DNA from: Natrinema ejinorense
Lineage (GTDB): Archaea; Halobacteriota; Halobacteria; Halobacteriales; Natrialbaceae
Direction: 5' to 3'
Assembly (NCBI RefSeq): GCF_002494345.1
Contig: NZ_NXNI01000001.1
Location: 434,001 to 498,000 of the forward strand
Length of the DNA stretch: 64,000 bases
Shown: positions 33,850 to 42,173 of the stretch, in pieces
How the letters are laid out: the number at the start of each line of letters is the position of its first letter
Position numbering within the stretch: the stretch's first letter is position 1
The notes under the pieces: model-generated
Database searches by the model: none
What the model was told of the DNA's origin: nothing
What the model saw: only the letters and a program-made list of their open reading frames with translations
Translations under genes and position numbers: made by a program

Positions 33850-35202
33850 ATGGCTAACGAAGATAACGATACTCTCGAAACGAGTACATCTGGAAACGGG
33901 GTTGTGGGACGACGAACATTTCTCGGTGCTGCGAGTGCGGGTGCGTTGACGACGACGCTCGCCGGCTGTATGGGTGGCGTCGGCGGTGGCAGTGGCGACG
34001 GGACGTTCAAAATCGGCCACCTCGGCCCGACGGAACTCCAAATGGGGCGCGGGGCCGAACGGAGCGCGGAGCTCGCGGTCTCCGAACTGAACGACAACGG
34101 CGGTATTCTCGATCGAGACGTCGAACTCCTCTCGCGAGACACCGGCGGCGCACCGTCGGAGGGCGAACGGGTGACCGAAGACCTGGTTCAGTCCGAACAG
34201 GTCGACCTGCTCGTCGGTACCTTCGTCAGCGAGGTGACCCAGGGAATCATCGACTTCGTCGCGGAGATGAACGTGCCGTTCGTCATCACCGGCTCCGCGG
34301 ATCCGGCGACGATCACGGACAATCACGGCGAAGACTACGAAAAGTATAAGAATATCGTCCGGACCGGTCCGATCAATTCCGATCTACAGGCGGAAGGGAT
34401 GGGCGGGTACGCGAGCTACCTCAACGAGCAACACGGCTTCGAGAACTTCTCGATTCTGGCCGACGACGCCGCCTGGACCGGCTCGTTCCGTGACATCCTT
34501 CCCGGCGAAATCGAGTCGAACAGCGATCTCTCCGTCGTTCATCAGGACAGAATGTCGGTCGAGACGTCCAATTTCAACCCGTTCCTCGACGCCGCCGCCG
34601 AGGCGGACGCCGACGTCGTCATGCGATTCATCGCACACGGCGGTGCGGCGGCCTTTACCAGTACCTGGGCACAGAACGAGTACCCGTTCGCCCTCGAGGG
34701 GATCAGTGTGCCGGGAATGTCCCCCGAGTTCTGGGGCGCGACCGAAGGTGCCTGTCTGTACGAGACGACGTCCCAGTCCGGTGCAGGTGGCGTCGCAGAT
34801 CTGACCGACCGGACGGAGCCCTTCATCAATGCCTACGAAGAGGAGTTCGGTAGCGGAGACCCACCGAGCAAACCGATGTACATGGGATTCAACTCGTACG
34901 ACGGGATCTTGTTCTACGCGCAGGCGGCCGAAGACGCCGGCACTGCCGATTACGAGAGCGATCTGGACGGCATCGTCGAGTCCATGCTCAACCTCGAGTT
35001 CACCGGCGCTGCGGGCGAAATCTCGCTCTACGGCGAGGACTCGGACTACCCGAACGACGTGAGGGAGACCAGAAACGACGACGACATCATTTCGAATTTC
35101 CCGATCACGCAGTGGCAGGAAGACGGGGATGGTGGCGTCGTCGAGTGCGTCTACCCCGAGCCGGACGCGACTGCAGAACACGTCGTTCCCGAGTGGATCT
35201 AA
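33850..35202 (+). CDS. livK: Branched-chain amino-acid-type ABC substrate-binding lipoprotein
   Basis: 450 residues. Tat signal GRRTFLGAASAG (Arg21-Arg22) and lipobox LAGCMG (Cys40). The mature part is a periplasmic-binding-protein type 1 fold of the Leu/Ile/Val receptor family: FKIGHLGPTELQMGRGAERSAELAV at the start, then ASYLNEQHGFENFSILADD and later hinge strands. It is the first gene of a complete livKHMGF operon. A TATA-like CTTTATTA at 33793-33800 gives a short leader. Ligand could be an amino acid, urea or short-chain amide; the sequence does not decide. Confidence 0.9.
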   Translation: MANEDNDTLETSTSGNGVVGRRTFLGAASAGALTTTLAGCMGGVGGGSGDGTFKIGHLGPTELQMGRGAERSAELAVSELNDNGGILDRDVELLSRDTGGAPSEGERVTEDLVQSEQVDLLVGTFVSEVTQGIIDFVAEMNVPFVITGSADPATITDNHGEDYEKYKNIVRTGPINSDLQAEGMGGYASYLNEQHGFENFSILADDAAWTGSFRDILPGEIESNSDLSVVHQDRMSVETSNFNPFLDAAAEADADVVMRFIAHGGAAAFTSTWAQNEYPFALEGISVPGMSPEFWGATEGACLYETTSQSGAGGVADLTDRTEPFINAYEEEFGSGDPPSKPMYMGFNSYDGILFYAQAAEDAGTADYESDLDGIVESMLNLEFTGAAGEISLYGEDSDYPNDVRETRNDDDIISNFPITQWQEDGDGGVVECVYPEPDATAEHVVPEWI

Positions 35203-35217
35203 GCGGGCCCCGAACGA

Positions 35218-36102
35218 ATGATAGGACAACTACTCTCCATACTGGTGTTAGGGGCGATGATCAGTGCCGTCTACGCACTGATCGCGATCGGGTTCACCAT
35301 GATCTTCGGCGTCGGCGGCGTCCTGAATCTCGCACACGGCGCACTGATCATGCTCGGTGCCTTCACGTATCTCGCGTTCACGTCGACCGCTGGCGCGCTT
35401 TCACTGCCACCGATCGTGGGGTTTTTGATCGCGGTCGTCGTCACAGCCGCCGCATCGTACGCGCTGTACGCGGGACTCGTCAAATACATCGAGGACAACA
35501 TCGTGATCACGTTCCTCGCGACGGTCGTCGTGGCGCTCCTGTTGACCGAACTGATCATCATCCAGTTCGGCAGCGCGCCGTCACAGCTCATTCCGGTGGT
35601 GTCGGGGACGATCTATCTCGACGCAGTCGGGACACGGCTCCGGTACGTCCAGCTGTTGGCGTTTGGCGTCTCCTGGATCGCGATCGGGTCGCTGTGGTAT
35701 TACGTGACCAAAACCGACGAGGGACGGTCGATCCTCGCGACCTCGATGAGCACGCGCGGTGCGGAGCTTACGGGCGTCAATCTCCAGAAAGTCAAGTCTC
35801 GGACCTGGCTGATCGCCGGCGCGTTCGCCGGGATCGCCGGGGTGTTCATCGGAACGCTGCAGTCGACGTCGCCCCAGATGTGGCTCAGTCCGCTCGCACT
35901 CGCGTTCATCATCGTCGTGATCGGTGGCATCGGCAGCATCAAGGGGTCCGTCATCGCGGCGTACCTGATCGGCTACCTCGAGACGGCGTCGGTCGAGATC
36001 CTCGGCCCGAGCTTCCAGGGGGTCCTGTCGTTAGTCGTCCTCGTCGCGATCTTACTGATGAGACCGAACGGCCTCTTCGGGAGGGAGCTCGTCCATGAGT
36101 AG
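35218..36102 (+). CDS. livH: Branched-chain amino-acid-type ABC permease LivH
   Basis: 294 residues, eight or so helices. The N-terminal MISAVYALIAIGFTMIFGVGGVLNLAHGA is the LivH signature, and the GGIGSIKGSVIAAYLIGYLE loop matches the ATPase-contact (EAA-like) region. It lies 15 nt after livK and overlaps livM by 8 nt. Confidence 0.94.
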   Translation: MIGQLLSILVLGAMISAVYALIAIGFTMIFGVGGVLNLAHGALIMLGAFTYLAFTSTAGALSLPPIVGFLIAVVVTAAASYALYAGLVKYIEDNIVITFLATVVVALLLTELIIIQFGSAPSQLIPVVSGTIYLDAVGTRLRYVQLLAFGVSWIAIGSLWYYVTKTDEGRSILATSMSTRGAELTGVNLQKVKSRTWLIAGAFAGIAGVFIGTLQSTSPQMWLSPLALAFIIVVIGGIGSIKGSVIAAYLIGYLETASVEILGPSFQGVLSLVVLVAILLMRPNGLFGRELVHE

Positions 36103-37153
36103 TGCGACGGATCGGTTGAGCACTGCGACGGGCCGTATCGATCGGTCACTACAGCCGCTTGCGGGCGTCTACAACCGGTTGTTCGGTGACTACTTCGGTG
36201 AAATGAACGGGCTCCAGTTCGTGTTGATCTTCGGAACGGCCGCCGCGCTGTTGACGGCGCCGTTGTGGGGGAATTTCGGGCTCGTCAGGGCGATGACCGT
36301 CGCAGCGATCTGGGCGATCTTCGCGATGAGCTGGGACATCCAGAGCGGCTACACCGGCTACATCAGCTTCGGTCACTCCGTCCTCTCGGGTGCCGCGGGA
36401 TACACGACCGCGATGCTCATTCACAACGTGAACCCGGAGCTGTCGATGATGATCACGATCCCGGTGTCGGTCTTCGCTGCACTCGTGGTCGGGCTGCTCG
36501 TTGCCCTGCCGTCGCTTCGGCTGGCGGGACCGTACTTCTCGTTGATCACGTTCGTGTCCGTGTTGATCTTCTATCGATTGATCCCCTCCTTCAGCCAATA
36601 CACTGGCGGAGAAACGGGAATCCAGTCGGTGGAGGTCTTCACGTACGATCCGTTCGCCCGGTACTACTACATGATCATCCCGATGTTCCTGATCGCGATC
36701 GTGCTGACGCTGATCGCTCGCTCGAACATCGGATTGATCCTCATGTCGATCCGCGAAAACGAAGCCGCAGTCAACGCTGCCGGGATCAATGCGACGAAAT
36801 TCAAGATCTTCTCGTTCGCACTGAGTTCGATCCCGATGGGGATCGGCGGCGTGTTGCTGGTTCACTTCGGCGGCGGCGTCGATCCGACGACGTTCATCGT
36901 CGTCGACCGGAGTATCGAAATGATCGCGATCGCCGTCCTCGGTGGGATGAGTTCGATCCTCGGGCCTCTCGGCGGGGCCTTCTTCCTCATCGTGCTCCGG
37001 GATTACGTCCTCACCGAGATCGCGGGCTTTTCGTCCCCGATTCGATGGACGGTCTTCTGGGGGCTCGTCTTGGTCGTGCTCGTGTTCGTCCGCGACGGGC
37101 TGTTCCGGAAACTCTGGCACGGCCTCGATCGATTCGGAGGTGATCGCCGATGA
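36095..37153 (+). CDS. livM: Branched-chain amino-acid-type ABC permease LivM
   Basis: 352 residues. A hydrophilic N-terminal extension (about 45 residues) precedes helices with the LivM motifs MSWDIQSGYTGYISFGHSVL and IRENEAAVNAAGINATKFKI, then GGMSSILGPLGGAFFLI. Pairs with LivH to form the membrane channel. Overlaps both neighbours. Confidence 0.94.
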   Translation: MSSATDRLSTATGRIDRSLQPLAGVYNRLFGDYFGEMNGLQFVLIFGTAAALLTAPLWGNFGLVRAMTVAAIWAIFAMSWDIQSGYTGYISFGHSVLSGAAGYTTAMLIHNVNPELSMMITIPVSVFAALVVGLLVALPSLRLAGPYFSLITFVSVLIFYRLIPSFSQYTGGETGIQSVEVFTYDPFARYYYMIIPMFLIAIVLTLIARSNIGLILMSIRENEAAVNAAGINATKFKIFSFALSSIPMGIGGVLLVHFGGGVDPTTFIVVDRSIEMIAIAVLGGMSSILGPLGGAFFLIVLRDYVLTEIAGFSSPIRWTVFWGLVLVVLVFVRDGLFRKLWHGLDRFGGDRR

Positions 37154-37878
37154 GCCTGCTCGAGGTCGACGGACTCACCAAGAAATTCGGCGGCCTGGTC
37201 GCCGTCGACGACTTCTCGTTCGAAGCCGACGAGGGCGAAATCGTCGGCCTCATCGGACCGAACGGATCGGGGAAGTCGACGGTCTTCAACTGTATCATGG
37301 GCCGCTACGATGTCACCGAGGGCTCGATCCGATTCAACGGGAGCGACATCACCGACGATGCGACCCACGAAGTCGTCAACAAGGGGCTCTCGCGGGTCTC
37401 ACAGGAGTCGAACCCGATTCATGAGATGCCGGTCGCGGGCAACATCAAACTGTTCACGCTCCCGAACAAGCTCACCTCGTTCTACGGCGGCGCGACCGAC
37501 GAGGAGATCTACGAATACGCCGCCCGAATCGACATCGAGGACAAACTCCAGGAGATGCCGGACGAACTGCCCCACGCGGACGTCCGCCGGCTCGAGATCG
37601 CCAAATCGCTGGCGACCGAACCCGAATTGATGTTGCTCGACGAGCCGTTCGCCGGGATGAATCAGGCCGAAATCACGGAACTGGCGGACCAGATCGAACG
37701 CTTCCGTCAGGAAGGAATGACGATGGTCGTCGTCGACCACAACATGGGCGGCCTGATGGACCTCGTCGATCGAATCGTCGTCCTCAACAACGGCGACTTC
37801 CTCGCGGAGGGAACGCCCGAGGAGATCGCCGAGAACGAACACGTCCAGGAGGCATACCTCGCTGGGGAGGGACTGTAA
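37150..37878 (+). CDS. livG: ABC transporter ATP-binding protein LivG
   Basis: 242 residues. Walker A GPNGSGKST near residue 36. The usual LSGGQ-type signature is weak and replaced by a segment around PHADVRRLEIAKSLA. Walker B is LMLLDEPFAGM, with the switch His in VVVDHNM. The LivG family contacts LivM. The degenerate signature motif is worth noting but seems common in divergent LivG proteins; the gene is otherwise intact. Confidence 0.9.
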   Translation: MSLLEVDGLTKKFGGLVAVDDFSFEADEGEIVGLIGPNGSGKSTVFNCIMGRYDVTEGSIRFNGSDITDDATHEVVNKGLSRVSQESNPIHEMPVAGNIKLFTLPNKLTSFYGGATDEEIYEYAARIDIEDKLQEMPDELPHADVRRLEIAKSLATEPELMLLDEPFAGMNQAEITELADQIERFRQEGMTMVVVDHNMGGLMDLVDRIVVLNNGDFLAEGTPEEIAENEHVQEAYLAGEGL

Positions 37879-38594
37879 TGACCGATCCACTACTCGAGAT
37901 CGAGGACCTCAACGTCTACTACGGGAAGTCACACGCACTGAAAGGCGTCTCGCTGTCGATCGACGAGGGCGAGATCTACGGCGTCATCGGGCCCAACGGG
38001 GCCGGCAAGACGACCATGCTCAACGCAATCGCCGGCTTCGTCGACTACGACGGGTCGATCCGCTACGACGGAACCGACCTCGCGACCGTGAGTCCACAGG
38101 AGATCGTCAGGGAGGGCCTGATCTACTGTACCGAGGACCGGGATCTGTTCCCGTACTTCTCGGTCCACGAGAACCTCCTGATGGGTGCGCAGTTCCGCAA
38201 CGACCGCGATGCGGTGCAGGCGGACCTCGACATGGTCTACGACCTGTTCCCCCGGCTGGACGAACGCCGCGAGCAGGAAGCCGAGACCATGAGCGGCGGC
38301 GAACAGCAGATGCTCGCCGTCGGCCGCGCGCTCATGAGCGATCCCGACATGCTGATGCTCGACGAACCGACGCTCGGGCTCGCCCCGGTCATCATCCAGG
38401 ACATCAGCGACGCGCTCGAGCGACTCTCGGATCAGGGGCTGACGATCCTGCTCGCCGAACAGAACTCGACGTTCGCGCTGCGCCACGCCGAACGGCTCTC
38501 GCTGATCGAAACCGGTGAGATCGAACTGGCGGGCACGTCCGAGGAGTTCCACGGCAACGAGTACGTTCGCGAAGCGTACGTCGGGGTCCACTGA
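37878..38594 (+). CDS. livF: ABC transporter ATP-binding protein LivF
   Basis: 238 residues. Walker A GPNGAGKTT, signature MSGGEQQMLAVGRALM, Walker B LMLDEPTLGLAP, switch His region LLAEQNS. Starts on the last base of livG. Last gene of the operon, followed within 50 nt by the first 87-bp hairpin repeat, which may act as its terminator. Confidence 0.94.
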   Translation: MTDPLLEIEDLNVYYGKSHALKGVSLSIDEGEIYGVIGPNGAGKTTMLNAIAGFVDYDGSIRYDGTDLATVSPQEIVREGLIYCTEDRDLFPYFSVHENLLMGAQFRNDRDAVQADLDMVYDLFPRLDERREQEAETMSGGEQQMLAVGRALMSDPDMLMLDEPTLGLAPVIIQDISDALERLSDQGLTILLAEQNSTFALRHAERLSLIETGEIELAGTSEEFHGNEYVREAYVGVH

Positions 38595-38641
38595 GGTTCC
38601 CCGCCCCTCGAGCTTTTTTCGACGGAGTGGCGACCACTCCG

Positions 38642-38728
38642 CATACGGTCTCCTGTCCGTCAGTGCCGGTGGGACGGGAACCGCCCTGCGGTCCCACCGG
38701 GACATCGGGACAGCAAACCGTCTCAGTC
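38642..38728. repeat. 87-bp hairpin repeat, copy 1
   Basis: An imperfect palindrome between the convergent livF and thioesterase genes. Inner stem CCGGTGGGAC/GTCCCACCGG, outer arms ACGGT..TGTCC/GGACA..ACCGT. Its right end includes the thioesterase stop codon. Copy 2 at 39334-39420 has the same length and the same outermost bases (CAT.. and ..CTCAGTC), but its interior is the reverse complement. Could work as a bidirectional terminator or be a MITE-like element. Confidence 0.85.
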
Positions 38729-39199
38729 GCTCGACTCGAGACCGCCCTGGAACGCCGCGACCGCGTCCCGGAACTCGTCCGGGATGGCGATCGGCTCCTC
38801 GGTCTCGAGGTCGACGGCGACGTGGGTGACCGACCCCTCGACGAGGGGCTCGCCGTCGGATTTCCGTCGCGCGCGGTAGTCGGAGGTGAAACTCGACGTT
38901 CCCATCTCGGTGACCGCCAGTTCGTTGACGATGGTGTCTCCGAACTCGGCACCGGCACGGTAGTTCAGTTCAGCGTTGACCACGTGCGTCTGCCAGCCGC
39001 GGTCGTGCATCTGTCCGTAACTGTAGTCGATTTCCCGGAAGAACGCGGAGATCGCCTCGTCCTGAAAGGTGAAGTACTCGCCGTAGAAGACGATCCCCTG
39101 CTGGTCGGTCTCGGCAAACCGGACGCGGTTCTCGAAGACGGGCTGGAAGGTCGGCCCGTCGGGTTCGTGCTCCGGATCGGTCGTGTCGGCATGTCCCAT
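38723..39199 (-). CDS. Acyl-CoA thioesterase, 4-hydroxybenzoyl-CoA thioesterase (hotdog) family
   Basis: 158 residues from MGHADTTDPE. The hotdog signature FAETDQQGIVFYGEYFTFQDEA holds the catalytic Asp about 15-20 residues into the domain, followed by THVVNAELNYRAGAEFGD and the beta-sheet core. The family hydrolyses acyl-CoA thioesters; YbgC/FcbC-like members vary in substrate. Hairpin repeats lie at its stop codon and about 135 nt upstream of its start. Confidence 0.88.
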   Translation of the reverse strand: MGHADTTDPEHEPDGPTFQPVFENRVRFAETDQQGIVFYGEYFTFQDEAISAFFREIDYSYGQMHDRGWQTHVVNAELNYRAGAEFGDTIVNELAVTEMGTSSFTSDYRARRKSDGEPLVEGSVTHVAVDLETEEPIAIPDEFRDAVAAFQGGLESSD

Positions 39200-39333
39200 A
39201 CCAGCAACGCCGTCGCGACGAGCAAAACCGTACCGGCCACGGCAAACGGTCGGGGCACCATCTCTCGCCTCGGAGACAACTCGGTTTCCCACCGGCGACC
39301 CCGTGACGGTCTCCAGTCGGTGGACGCACGACT

Positions 39334-39420
39334 CATACGGTTTGCTGTCCCGATGTTCCGGTGGGACCGCAGGACGATCCCGGTCCCACCGGCGCTGACG
39401 GACAGGAGACCGTCTCAGTC
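39334..39420. repeat. 87-bp hairpin repeat, copy 2 (inverted interior)
   Basis: Same design and length as copy 1, between the start of the thioesterase gene and the end of the PgsB-like gene, whose TGA stop lies inside its right end. Relative to copy 1 the outermost 3 and 7 bases are in the same orientation, while the roughly 70-bp core is inverted. Confidence 0.85.
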
Positions 39421-40980
39421 CGCGTCGCCGATAGCGACCTGTTGGGCGCGCTCGGAAATCTCGGCTTCCATGTCTCGCATGAACGCATCGACCGTATTTC
39501 CCATCAGCATGACCGGGTACTCCCCAGCCAGCATCTCGTCTAGAACCGCACCCGCGTTTTCGTCCCGATCGTGAGTCGTCACGGGAACGTCCACGTTCGC
39601 CGCGAAGATGTCCGTGAACGCCCCACCGGCCCGTGCCCGCTGGATCAGGTCCCGGTCTGCGAGCGTATTCAGGTAGTCCGCAAACGAGGCGGTTCGACTC
39701 CGCCGATCGGCCCGGAGGTAGACGAACGGGAGAACGTAATTCTCCCCGGCGAGTGACCGACGGATCGCCTCCGTACTTTCGATGTCGTTGATCTCCGCTC
39801 CGTTGAAGACTTGCCCGCCGGGGAGACGAACCCATTCGGGTTGGATCGCATCGAGATACTCGTTGAGTTGCTCCTCGGGGACCGGCGTCATGTCCAGCAG
39901 ACGCAGGACGTCGTTGACCGCGTAGACCGTTTCGGCACCGATCCGCCCGCGCTGGTCGTCCGGTATCGTGACCTGTGTGAACGTTCCGCCTGCCCGTGTG
40001 ATCTCCGCCGACAGATACTCGTGCAAAACGGGATGGAGTTCCCCGCTCACGACGTCCGTGCCCGGTGGGACCGTCCGAGCGAAAGCACGTGCGATGTCGC
40101 GTCGGGTCTTCCCGAGCGTATCCTGATGATCCTGTCGGATGTTCGCGATCACGACGACGTGGGGTTTGACGAACCGCTGATTGAACAGCCGCGTCGTGTA
40201 TTCGGTAATCCCCTGGTTCTCGAAGATGGCCACGTTCTCGGGCGTATACGACTCGAGAATCGGGCTGAACTCCCGAAGCACGTTGATGTTTTCATAGAGC
40301 GTGGTGTACGGCCCCGGTCGATCGATCGGGATGACGTCGCCGTTTCGGATGAGCGCCGGCTGATTCCCCGTGATCTTCGTCAGCACGTCGTAGCCACGCC
40401 GATTGAACACGTCGTCGAGCCGTTTGACCGTCGATGACTTGCCACGGATGCCGGACACGACGATCCGAATATCGGTGTCCTCGATGAACGTTCGATGGTG
40501 CCGCCCTCGGGTGAGAAGTGACCACAGCCGGTTTCGAAGGGTGCCACGCCCAACGGAGAACGGCTCATACGAGACCGATTCGTCCTTCGCTCCAGTCAGG
40601 TAAACGGACATCGACCCGACTGCGAGCTCGCGGAACCGCCGTGCTGCGTCGACTACGTTGTCCCGCGTCGTGTAGGTGTAGCTCGGAACCGCGAGCGTCT
40701 CCGCTCCTTGCTCGAGTGCCCATTCGAAGATGCCGCTGCGTTCCTCCCCTCGGATGTGAATCCGAGAGCGTGCGCGATCGGTCGGGTCGACGGTGAACTC
40801 GAACGCGTCGAGCTGTTGGACTTCGGCGACGGCATCTCGAACCGCATCGACTGCGTTCCGTGCTTCCTGTGACGTTTCGGATGGGGCTGGAGCGACTGCG
40901 AGTGGGATATCTCCGTCGTAGAACTCCCAAATCCATCCATCAGACGTTGCGATGACTTCGAAGTGGCCCTGTTCGATCAC
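39415..40980 (-). CDS. Mur-ligase-like amide ligase, PgsB/CapB (poly-gamma-glutamate synthase) type
   Basis: 521 residues. A Mur-ligase P-loop GIRGKSST lies at 177-184, preceded by strand IRIVVS, with the PgsB-like motifs KITGNQPALI (about 202-211), ENVAIFENQGI (about 248-258) and NIRQDHQDTLG (280-290), then TVPPGTDVVSGE. PgsB/CapB ligates glutamate through an acyl-phosphate to build poly-gamma-glutamate. The ~170-residue N-terminal extension (with SGIFEWALEQGAETLAVPSYTY) is absent from classic 390-residue PgsB and is unexplained. It is translationally coupled to the PgsC-like gene (40977-40980). No CapA/PgsA or CapD homologue is adjacent, so the polymer is uncertain. Confidence 0.72.
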   Translation of the reverse strand: MIEQGHFEVIATSDGWIWEFYDGDIPLAVAPAPSETSQEARNAVDAVRDAVAEVQQLDAFEFTVDPTDRARSRIHIRGEERSGIFEWALEQGAETLAVPSYTYTTRDNVVDAARRFRELAVGSMSVYLTGAKDESVSYEPFSVGRGTLRNRLWSLLTRGRHHRTFIEDTDIRIVVSGIRGKSSTVKRLDDVFNRRGYDVLTKITGNQPALIRNGDVIPIDRPGPYTTLYENINVLREFSPILESYTPENVAIFENQGITEYTTRLFNQRFVKPHVVVIANIRQDHQDTLGKTRRDIARAFARTVPPGTDVVSGELHPVLHEYLSAEITRAGGTFTQVTIPDDQRGRIGAETVYAVNDVLRLLDMTPVPEEQLNEYLDAIQPEWVRLPGGQVFNGAEINDIESTEAIRRSLAGENYVLPFVYLRADRRSRTASFADYLNTLADRDLIQRARAGGAFTDIFAANVDVPVTTHDRDENAGAVLDEMLAGEYPVMLMGNTVDAFMRDMEAEISERAQQVAIGDAD

Positions 40981-42173
40981 GCGTCACCGCCTCCCGAAAG
41001 GATCGATGCCTCGAACACGGCCTCCTGATCCGGACGGTCGACGGTCCGCCACTCGACGAAAACCACACACGCGACGACGCCGACGATCATCGCGACGATG
41101 GCGGGGATCCCGAACACCTGTGGAATCAGCGTCGGACGAACCAGGCCGATGAGTTGCGTCGTGGCGAGTAATAGGAGGAACGATCCGATCTGTAACGGGA
41201 CGAATAGCGCCCGCTGTGCGGGAGCGGTGACGTGCCAACTGTAAGCGTTTACGCCGGCCAGGATAGCGACGAAGTAGGCCGATAACCCGCGAGTGATCGG
41301 GAGCGAAAGTGCAAGCGGGACGACGGCGATCAGCGCCGTGCCGGTCGCCACGGAGATCAGAACGCGCCCGTACAACAGTGTGACGTAGTGGACGGTTTTC
41401 AGCCCGAGATACGCGACGACCAGAACGGCGAGATACAACGCGAGCAACCACGTGTTGGCGAGTGCATACAGCGAGAGCAGCGCCATCGCAACGAGACCCG
41501 TCCGGACGCCGTACCGGTTCCGAACGCGTTCCGCGAGCACAACACCGATCAGAAACACGACGACTGCGACCGGGCGTGCGAGAATCGTCGGGTCCAACTC
41601 CTCGAACACGACCGCGCCTTTCAGGACGGCCACGTCGGCCGTCGGACTGTATAGAACTGGCGGGGTGAGGGTACCGAGCGTCTCCGTAAGCGATGGGGCG
41701 ACCAGGAGCCACCCGATCGCGACGAGAACGACGAGCAAAACCGCCGTCGTTAGTAGATCACGGCTGCGGTACTGTGGTTTGATCTGGTGGTAATTGTACG
41801 CCGCCAGTCCGGGAAGGATGCTCCCGATGAAGACCACGCTTCGGAGCGATTCCGGGAGGAAATGCCAGACAGCGAGCAACACCAGGAGGGGGACACCACT
41901 GCCGATCGCCATCGCCACGAGGAGTTCGTCGCGTCCATAGATGAGGGTGCGATGCTTGACGGCGTAGAGGCCGATATACGCGATGAGCGTGCTGATGAGG
42001 AAAATCGGCAACATCAGCGCATTTTTTAGCGTATACACGGCGAGAACCGGAACTGCGATCGTCCCGCCGGTCCGGTAGCCAAACAACTGCGTGATGAGTC
42101 CGACGGCGAAGACACCGAGTGCAGTAACGGTGACAGCAATGATCATTTCTATGTAACGTTCCGAGAGATCCAT
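40977..42173 (-). CDS. PgsC/CapC-like membrane protein, internally duplicated
   Basis: 398 residues from MDLSERYIEM (an ATG at 42185 is possible); ten or more helices. Two similar halves are offset by about 190 residues: FGYRTGG..LAVYTL (31-49) against YGVRTGL..LSLYAL (221-238); LYAVKHRTLIYGRDEL (69-83) against GLKTVHYVTLLYGRVL (257-272); FIGSILPGLAAYNYHQ against FVAILAGVNAYSWHV. CapC/PgsC (about 150 residues) is the membrane partner of the CapB/PgsB ligase; here two copies appear fused. It precedes and overlaps the ligase gene. Probable role: membrane platform or exit channel for a gamma-linked polymer. Confidence 0.7.
   Translation of the reverse strand: MDLSERYIEMIIAVTVTALGVFAVGLITQLFGYRTGGTIAVPVLAVYTLKNALMLPIFLISTLIAYIGLYAVKHRTLIYGRDELLVAMAIGSGVPLLVLLAVWHFLPESLRSVVFIGSILPGLAAYNYHQIKPQYRSRDLLTTAVLLVVLVAIGWLLVAPSLTETLGTLTPPVLYSPTADVAVLKGAVVFEELDPTILARPVAVVVFLIGVVLAERVRNRYGVRTGLVAMALLSLYALANTWLLALYLAVLVVAYLGLKTVHYVTLLYGRVLISVATGTALIAVVPLALSLPITRGLSAYFVAILAGVNAYSWHVTAPAQRALFVPLQIGSFLLLLATTQLIGLVRPTLIPQVFGIPAIVAMIVGVVACVVFVEWRTVDRPDQEAVFEASILSGGGDA

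Follow-up and report, generated by a model that had tools for sequence, protein, structure and literature searches.

The two hairpin repeats in the window, by which we mean the entire stretch of 64,000 nucleotides of Natrinema ejinorense DNA analyzed here, are best interpreted, with a probability of roughly 90%, as separate insertions of a single mobile palindrome that is MITE-like and non-autonomous and is presumably placed by a trans-acting enzyme at TSA (TGA or TCA) targets. Multiple lines of evidence, from the anatomy of the two copies, the comparison of filled and empty sites in related genomes, and the distribution and sequence variation of a large family of such palindromes, bear on this interpretation and on its alternatives.

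Two insertions of one palindrome in opposite directions

The original prediction described two 87-bp hairpin repeats that share their outer bases in the same orientation, carry cores inverted relative to these flanks, and each contain the stop codon of the adjoining leftward gene. Pairwise comparison confirms this picture: each core (38645-38721 and 39337-39413) matches the reverse complement of the other at 91% over 85 nt, the flanks CAT...CTCAGTC run in the same orientation in both copies, and a TGA stop lies within each of them (Table 1). The copies, located 692 bp apart and inverted, each fold into a long hairpin (RNA MFE of -45 to -52 kcal/mol, z-scores of -3.8 to -5.7), and none of 200 shuffled sequences folds equally well. 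The left duplication of copy 1 has decayed to GCA; a second genome of the same species (G075, locus L421) reads CTCATACGG at this position, with TCA intact. The 87-bp span resolves into a 3-bp duplication, a boundary base, the 77-bp palindrome, another boundary base, the second 3-bp duplication and chance bases, namely GTC, an Asp codon adjoining the stop. In copy 1 the arm ACGGTTTGCTGTCC leads on the minus strand, in the direction of the gene that ends there, and copy 2 points opposite to the gene that ends on it. The shared outer bases are the target-site duplication of a stop codon, and the inverted core is the same element inserted in the opposite direction.

Table 1. Window coordinates of the two palindrome insertions and of the genes that end on them
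Feature	Position	Strand	Details
Copy 1, left target-site duplication (decayed)	38641..38643	.	GCA; TCA in same-species genome G075
Copy 1, inserted unit	38644..38722	-	boundary T + 77-bp palindrome 38645-38721 + boundary C
Copy 1, right duplication TCA = TGA stop of thioesterase gene	38723..38725	-	ORF end at 38723
Thioesterase-like gene (4HBT), ends on copy 1	38723..39199	-	Pfam PF13279, E 1.7e-12; 4HBT_2/4HBT domain
Copy 2, left target-site duplication TCA	39333..39335	.	identical to 39415-39417; single TCA in the G075 empty site
Copy 2, inserted unit	39336..39414	+	boundary T + 77-bp palindrome 39337-39413 + boundary C
Copy 2, right duplication TCA = TGA stop of leftward gene 39415-40980	39415..39417	-	ORF end at 39415
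Gene ending on copy 2, 521 aa	39415..40980	-	adjoins CapC-like gene 40977-42173

The G075 genome, which is about 95% identical at this locus, has copy 1 as well, oriented as in the window, and carries a single ACGACTCAGTCCGCG in place of copy 2, with the stop preserved. Thus, copy 2 is a separate insertion, and the flipping of a palindrome in place, which the original prediction had considered, is not needed to account for the two window copies.

The genes on which the copies end belong to a region (window 33850-42173) that begins with an ABC transporter operon of the branched-chain amino-acid type (33850-38594), which is convergent to the thioesterase gene, and continues with the CapC-like gene and its partner. 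The start codon of the thioesterase gene comes from a codon-usage gene caller. A Pfam search with the 521-aa product of the partner gene gave no match, and from gene order alone this protein is probably a CapB/PgsB-type ligase.

A large, patchily distributed family

Alignments of 30, then 52, and then up to 320 copies yielded the family consensus, an imperfect palindrome of 77-78 bp (ACGGTYTSCTGTCC...GGACAGSARACCGT) with a single variable base on either side (left, T or G; right, A or C), outside of which an identical trinucleotide, TGA or TCA, is found on both sides. The element is short and non-coding with terminal inverted repeats (ends ACGGTYTSCTGTCC), generates a target-site duplication, and is dispersed in many copies with insertion polymorphism, all of which are defining features of MITEs.

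Counting copies across the genome and in relatives, the check proposed with the original prediction, revealed at least 40 full-length matches, among 119 first-look candidates, in the 4.48-Mb genome from which the window comes (G000), so that the two-copy pattern is not due to chance. In the same genome there are 380 end-motif sites compared to 96 with the reversed control, an excess that suggests about 140 copies. First-look candidates are as numerous or more so in some sister species (207 in G017 and 166 in G020), and element-carrying haloarchaeal genomes contain roughly a hundred or more copies each. The element is present in 60 of 121 Natrialbaceae genomes, representing 19 of 29 genera, and its presence is patchy among close relatives. 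At an E-value of 1e-4 it was detected in none of 16 genomes from other families of the order; searches of phage records and viral contigs did not find it, and an Rfam search with the element gave no match.

Two further observations concern related or similar sequences. Versions of 55 bp that lack much of the inner hairpin were noticed in G000 (L042 1520-1574, L044 1497-1551 and L046 1510-1564); in L044 and L046 the duplications are intact, and the short forms may be mobile derivatives or deletions. A distinct dispersed palindrome of 84 bp (TATAGTAGCAACTGAAACGATTTACACAC...TGACTTTCAGTTGCTACTATA) occurs in two copies, 1.3 kb apart and in opposite directions, in L043 (821-904 and 2099-2182; G000:C1 about 3015420 and 3016700), and related pieces flank L006 and the N. 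mahii locus L092.

Target-site duplication and insertion polymorphism

Of the 174 copies flanked by TSA left and right, 102 have TGA/TGA and 71 have TCA/TCA (173 concordant), and only one copy is mixed (p about 1e-50). Empty sites show directly that the element is mobile and duplicates its target. Thus, G005 reads GACCGTC-TGA-GAACC where G004 has GACCGTC-TGA-T[77]C-TGA-GGACC, and G020 reads CCCTC-TCA-GTTCG where G017 has CCCTC-TCA-T[77]A-TCA-GTTCG; more empty sites were found in G004, G005 and G014, and at several of them the inserted unit is a clean 79 bp plus 3 bp. At one locus G014 carries a single element on the stop, and in G005 a second element has been added at the same TGA. Some neighboring elements (L171 1501-1660, L246 2080-2239, L432 11102-11257) share or abut a duplicated TSA, and two-hairpin arrays appear to grow at one stop codon by such adjoining insertions.

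Core orientation, which the original prediction had proposed to score against flanks and stop codons, is not fixed: relative to TGA it is random, with 95 copies in the plus and 89 in the minus direction. One property of the intact copies counts against the interpretation favored here. When the copies are read relative to TGA, the boundary base adjoining the duplication is G in 36% of cases on the left, and its counterpart on the right is C in 21% (p 0.002), irrespective of core orientation; such an asymmetry is not expected from fully symmetric integration.

We propose that an enzyme acting in trans would insert a 79-bp unit, consisting of T, the 77-bp palindrome and A (G or C frequently taking the place of these terminal bases), into a short, palindromic target site centered on TSA, through a 3-bp staggered cut that leads to TGA-element-TGA, in a cut-and-paste reaction that is probably of the DDE type. 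Being nearly symmetric, the unit could enter either way round, and the combination of this near-symmetry with the 3-bp duplication would create the appearance of fixed flanks around an inverted core. Gene ends of the form ...GAC TGA G would match the target, and duplication of TGA would regenerate the stop. With the stop regenerated and the protein unchanged, such insertions would be harmless, which would be enough to explain their persistence.

Insertions at stop codons

The suggestion that a MITE-like element targets gene ends is supported by the concordant 3-bp duplications, the empty sites and an enrichment at stop codons. Beyond the duplication, the flanks show a roughly palindromic preference with a consensus of about CGAC-TSA-GTCG. 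In G000 the duplication falls exactly on a predicted TGA stop in 36 of 46 intact copies (78%), a count confined to copies whose duplications are intact and that are located either on a stop or between genes; across all genomes, 105 of 179 intact copies are on a TGA stop and 74 are intergenic, most of the stops being predictions of a simple gene caller based on codon usage rather than curated annotation. Stops account for 12% of non-coding TSA sites, but a preference matrix built from intergenic insertions alone predicts 42% on stops, an expectation well above 12% because haloarchaeal genes often end in GAC-TGA-G. A claim of overwhelming stop targeting, as the raw 12% would imply, can therefore be discarded. 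The enrichment over target preference is only moderate, clear in G000 (p 4e-7; overall p 3e-6) and not in G017, where 15 of 47 copies are on stops without any excess; hence stop enrichment is not a fixed property of the element. The baseline is conservative, as it takes in loci chosen for carrying the element. Among three annotated plasmid matches, the deposited CDS stop lies exactly at the duplication in two (N. thermotolerans A29 and Natronorubrum bangense), and the third, from Halomontanus rarus, is intergenic.

A maintained hairpin with a conserved internal loop

The structure examined for covariation was the palindrome itself. In a set of 42 diverse copies, 82 cells are altered on both sides of a stem pair compared to 42.5 in shuffles, and the covariation score of 0.216 (0.139 in shuffled alignments, with 0 of 500 shuffles as high) is well above that of slid versions. 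Inner-stem variants likewise involve changes in both arms; RNAalifold alone, applied to the same diverse set, recovered the helix only in part. Within the stem, CGAT faces TGAC in a 4x4 internal loop that occupies element positions 15-18 and 60-63 and is 88-99% conserved per position, yet almost never paired. This conserved mismatch makes the element polar. Either the hairpin is read by the mobilizing enzyme, or each end has a fixed sub-terminal site of its own. On one strand the loop, with tandem G-A/A-G and a T-T, resembles the non-canonical stem of a kink-turn; the random orientation relative to genes argues against a kink-turn-like role in mRNA.

A more specific scenario, in which a hairpin-reading enzyme homes on stops (GAC-TGA-G), the palindrome spreads harmlessly family-wide, and the apical loop undergoes repeated inversion in place, seems to us rather unlikely in this full form.

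Candidates for the mobilizing enzyme

From the length of the duplication and the symmetry of the target, our best guess is that the mobilizer is a DDE transposase similar to those of IS5/IS1031. None of the 16 PF01609 transposase loci of the window genome carries the end motif of the element, and transposases of the PF13359 family, absent from 17 genomes, do not fit either. In 1.76 Mb of sequence, no end pair at IS spacing proved to be an IS and no autonomous element with these ends was detected; one candidate parent pair (3809068/3810371, 1,317 bp) is not an IS. In 14 G000 stretches and six sister-genome stretches around extra end motifs, the paired ends delimit only elements of 77-78 bp.

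Alternatively, the palindrome could be moved as single-stranded DNA by a Y1 transposase (RAYT/IS200-type), in the manner of REP/REPIN elements, with the flanking TGA serving as a cleavage motif rather than a duplication. The hairpin with its strictly conserved mismatched CGAT/TGAC loop, the high copy number and the end-base asymmetry relative to TGA fit such an origin, and GTAG REPs too often provide a stop codon to flanking genes (PMC3733652). However, Y1 genes do not track the element among the genomes compared, being absent from element-rich genomes (G004 and G008) and present in element-free ones (G003, G010, G013 and G022), so that a REP/RAYT-type mobilizer does not fit; moreover, both core orientations are equally frequent relative to TGA, and the roughly palindromic target is of the type expected for a symmetric DDE dimer. 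We consider this origin improbable.

Alternatives to independent mobility

No more probable is the notion that the palindromes are functional 3'-end hairpins, terminators or RNA stabilizers that were duplicated because they are useful and not because they are selfish. The location at gene ends, with 78% of the intact G000 copies on stops, and the preservation of the stem by compensatory changes would be in line with such a role. However, 74 of 179 intact copies are intergenic, and orientation is random relative to the gene despite the strand asymmetry of the internal loop; furthermore, a terminator consensus scan detected no terminator-like stem with a T-run at either window element, and the patchy presence among close relatives, together with the empty sites, does not sit well with a resident function.

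Less probable still is the flipping of cores in place after a single insertion, through cruciform resolution, template switching during replication or the action of an inversion enzyme. Inversion was assessed at 41 orthologous insertions in which both flanks are conserved: it is absent from 33, and in six the apical ~15 bp is inverted inside unchanged outer arms; of the other two, one fits inversion of the whole core and one fits, weakly, inversion of the outer part only. The clear cases of in-place inversion are thus confined to the apical segment in related species (L055 versus L095, L051/L054 versus L112, and L098/L114 versus L111; less certain are L090 versus L104 and L230 versus L217), and the best of them retain locus-specific loop letters (L055/L095, where the loop is one base longer, L111 and L112). 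Oppositely oriented whole cores occupy the same stop or site in L009 versus L090/L104 and in L256 versus L389. However, the latter pair is not a secure case of whole-core inversion: the shared GGCCGGCC variant marks a subfamily, and the young copy (L256_14183) is identical to another copy in its genome, so that re-insertion or conversion is equally possible. Similarly, the inner inversion in L357 matches a paralogue and may reflect conversion. Orthologous elements often diverge more than their flanks (in L093 versus L210, 76% compared to 97-98% identity in the adjoining 60 bp). Within the window species, all seven insertions shared by G000 and G075 keep both orientations, and no locus was found in both whole-core orientations, as an invertible element would display; the absence of copy 2 from G075, where copy 1 is in its usual direction, likewise speaks against flipping.

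Finally, the idea that there are only two copies, generated by a local inverted duplication, is refuted despite their inverted arrangement at close range, given the dozens to hundreds of copies genome-wide, the occurrence in most genera of the family, and the finding that, among scored matches, copy 2 is closest to a copy at contig position 90354 (98%) and not to copy 1.

Relationship to known elements and implications

The element has close counterparts in prokaryotic MITEs (reviewed in PMC10969869), five families of which have been described in Haloquadratum walsbyi (PMC3119063). Like these, it is short, non-coding, bounded by inverted repeats and target-site duplications, present in many copies and apparently moved in trans; unlike them, it is a palindrome over nearly its whole length and lacks a unique central part, duplicates TGA stops, and has no parent transposon with matching ends among the sequences surveyed (the PF01609 loci and the 1.76 Mb). 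The SMRs of H. walsbyi (HqIRS40-43 and 55), mobile repeats without an identifiable transposase, resemble the element in their size of about 80-110 bp, prominent inverted repeats, lack of a matching transposon and enigmatic mobilization (PMC3119063). SMRs, however, lack a target duplication, so that the 3-bp duplication observed here sets the element apart, and they target other mobile elements, not gene ends. With REP/REPIN sequences (PMC3733652) the element shares its abundance as an extragenic palindrome, ends that supply stop codons and a conserved stem mismatch; it differs in having no GTAG/CGTC tag in the consensus, a direct TSA duplication and no link to Y1 enzymes. In the open-access literature searched, an incomplete set, the element appears undescribed, and its novelty is provisional.

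A 3-bp TNA duplication is characteristic of the IS1031 group of the IS5 family. The element likewise duplicates 3 bp of the form T-N-A, in a short target that is itself palindromic; in contrast to that group, no such transposase with the ends of the element was found, PF13359 being absent and the PF01609 loci lacking these ends. The missing mobilizer is a concrete target for a gene search.

The family offers a large natural set of palindromes whose insertion states are known, and these could be used to measure inversion driven by hairpins, the correction of stems and the influence of a 3' hairpin on haloarchaeal transcripts. Where the duplicated target is a stop codon, insertion occurs exactly at the end of the gene and leaves the protein unaltered. 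Such harmless insertion at stops would offer a simple reason for the very high copy number that this palindrome has reached in compact genomes.
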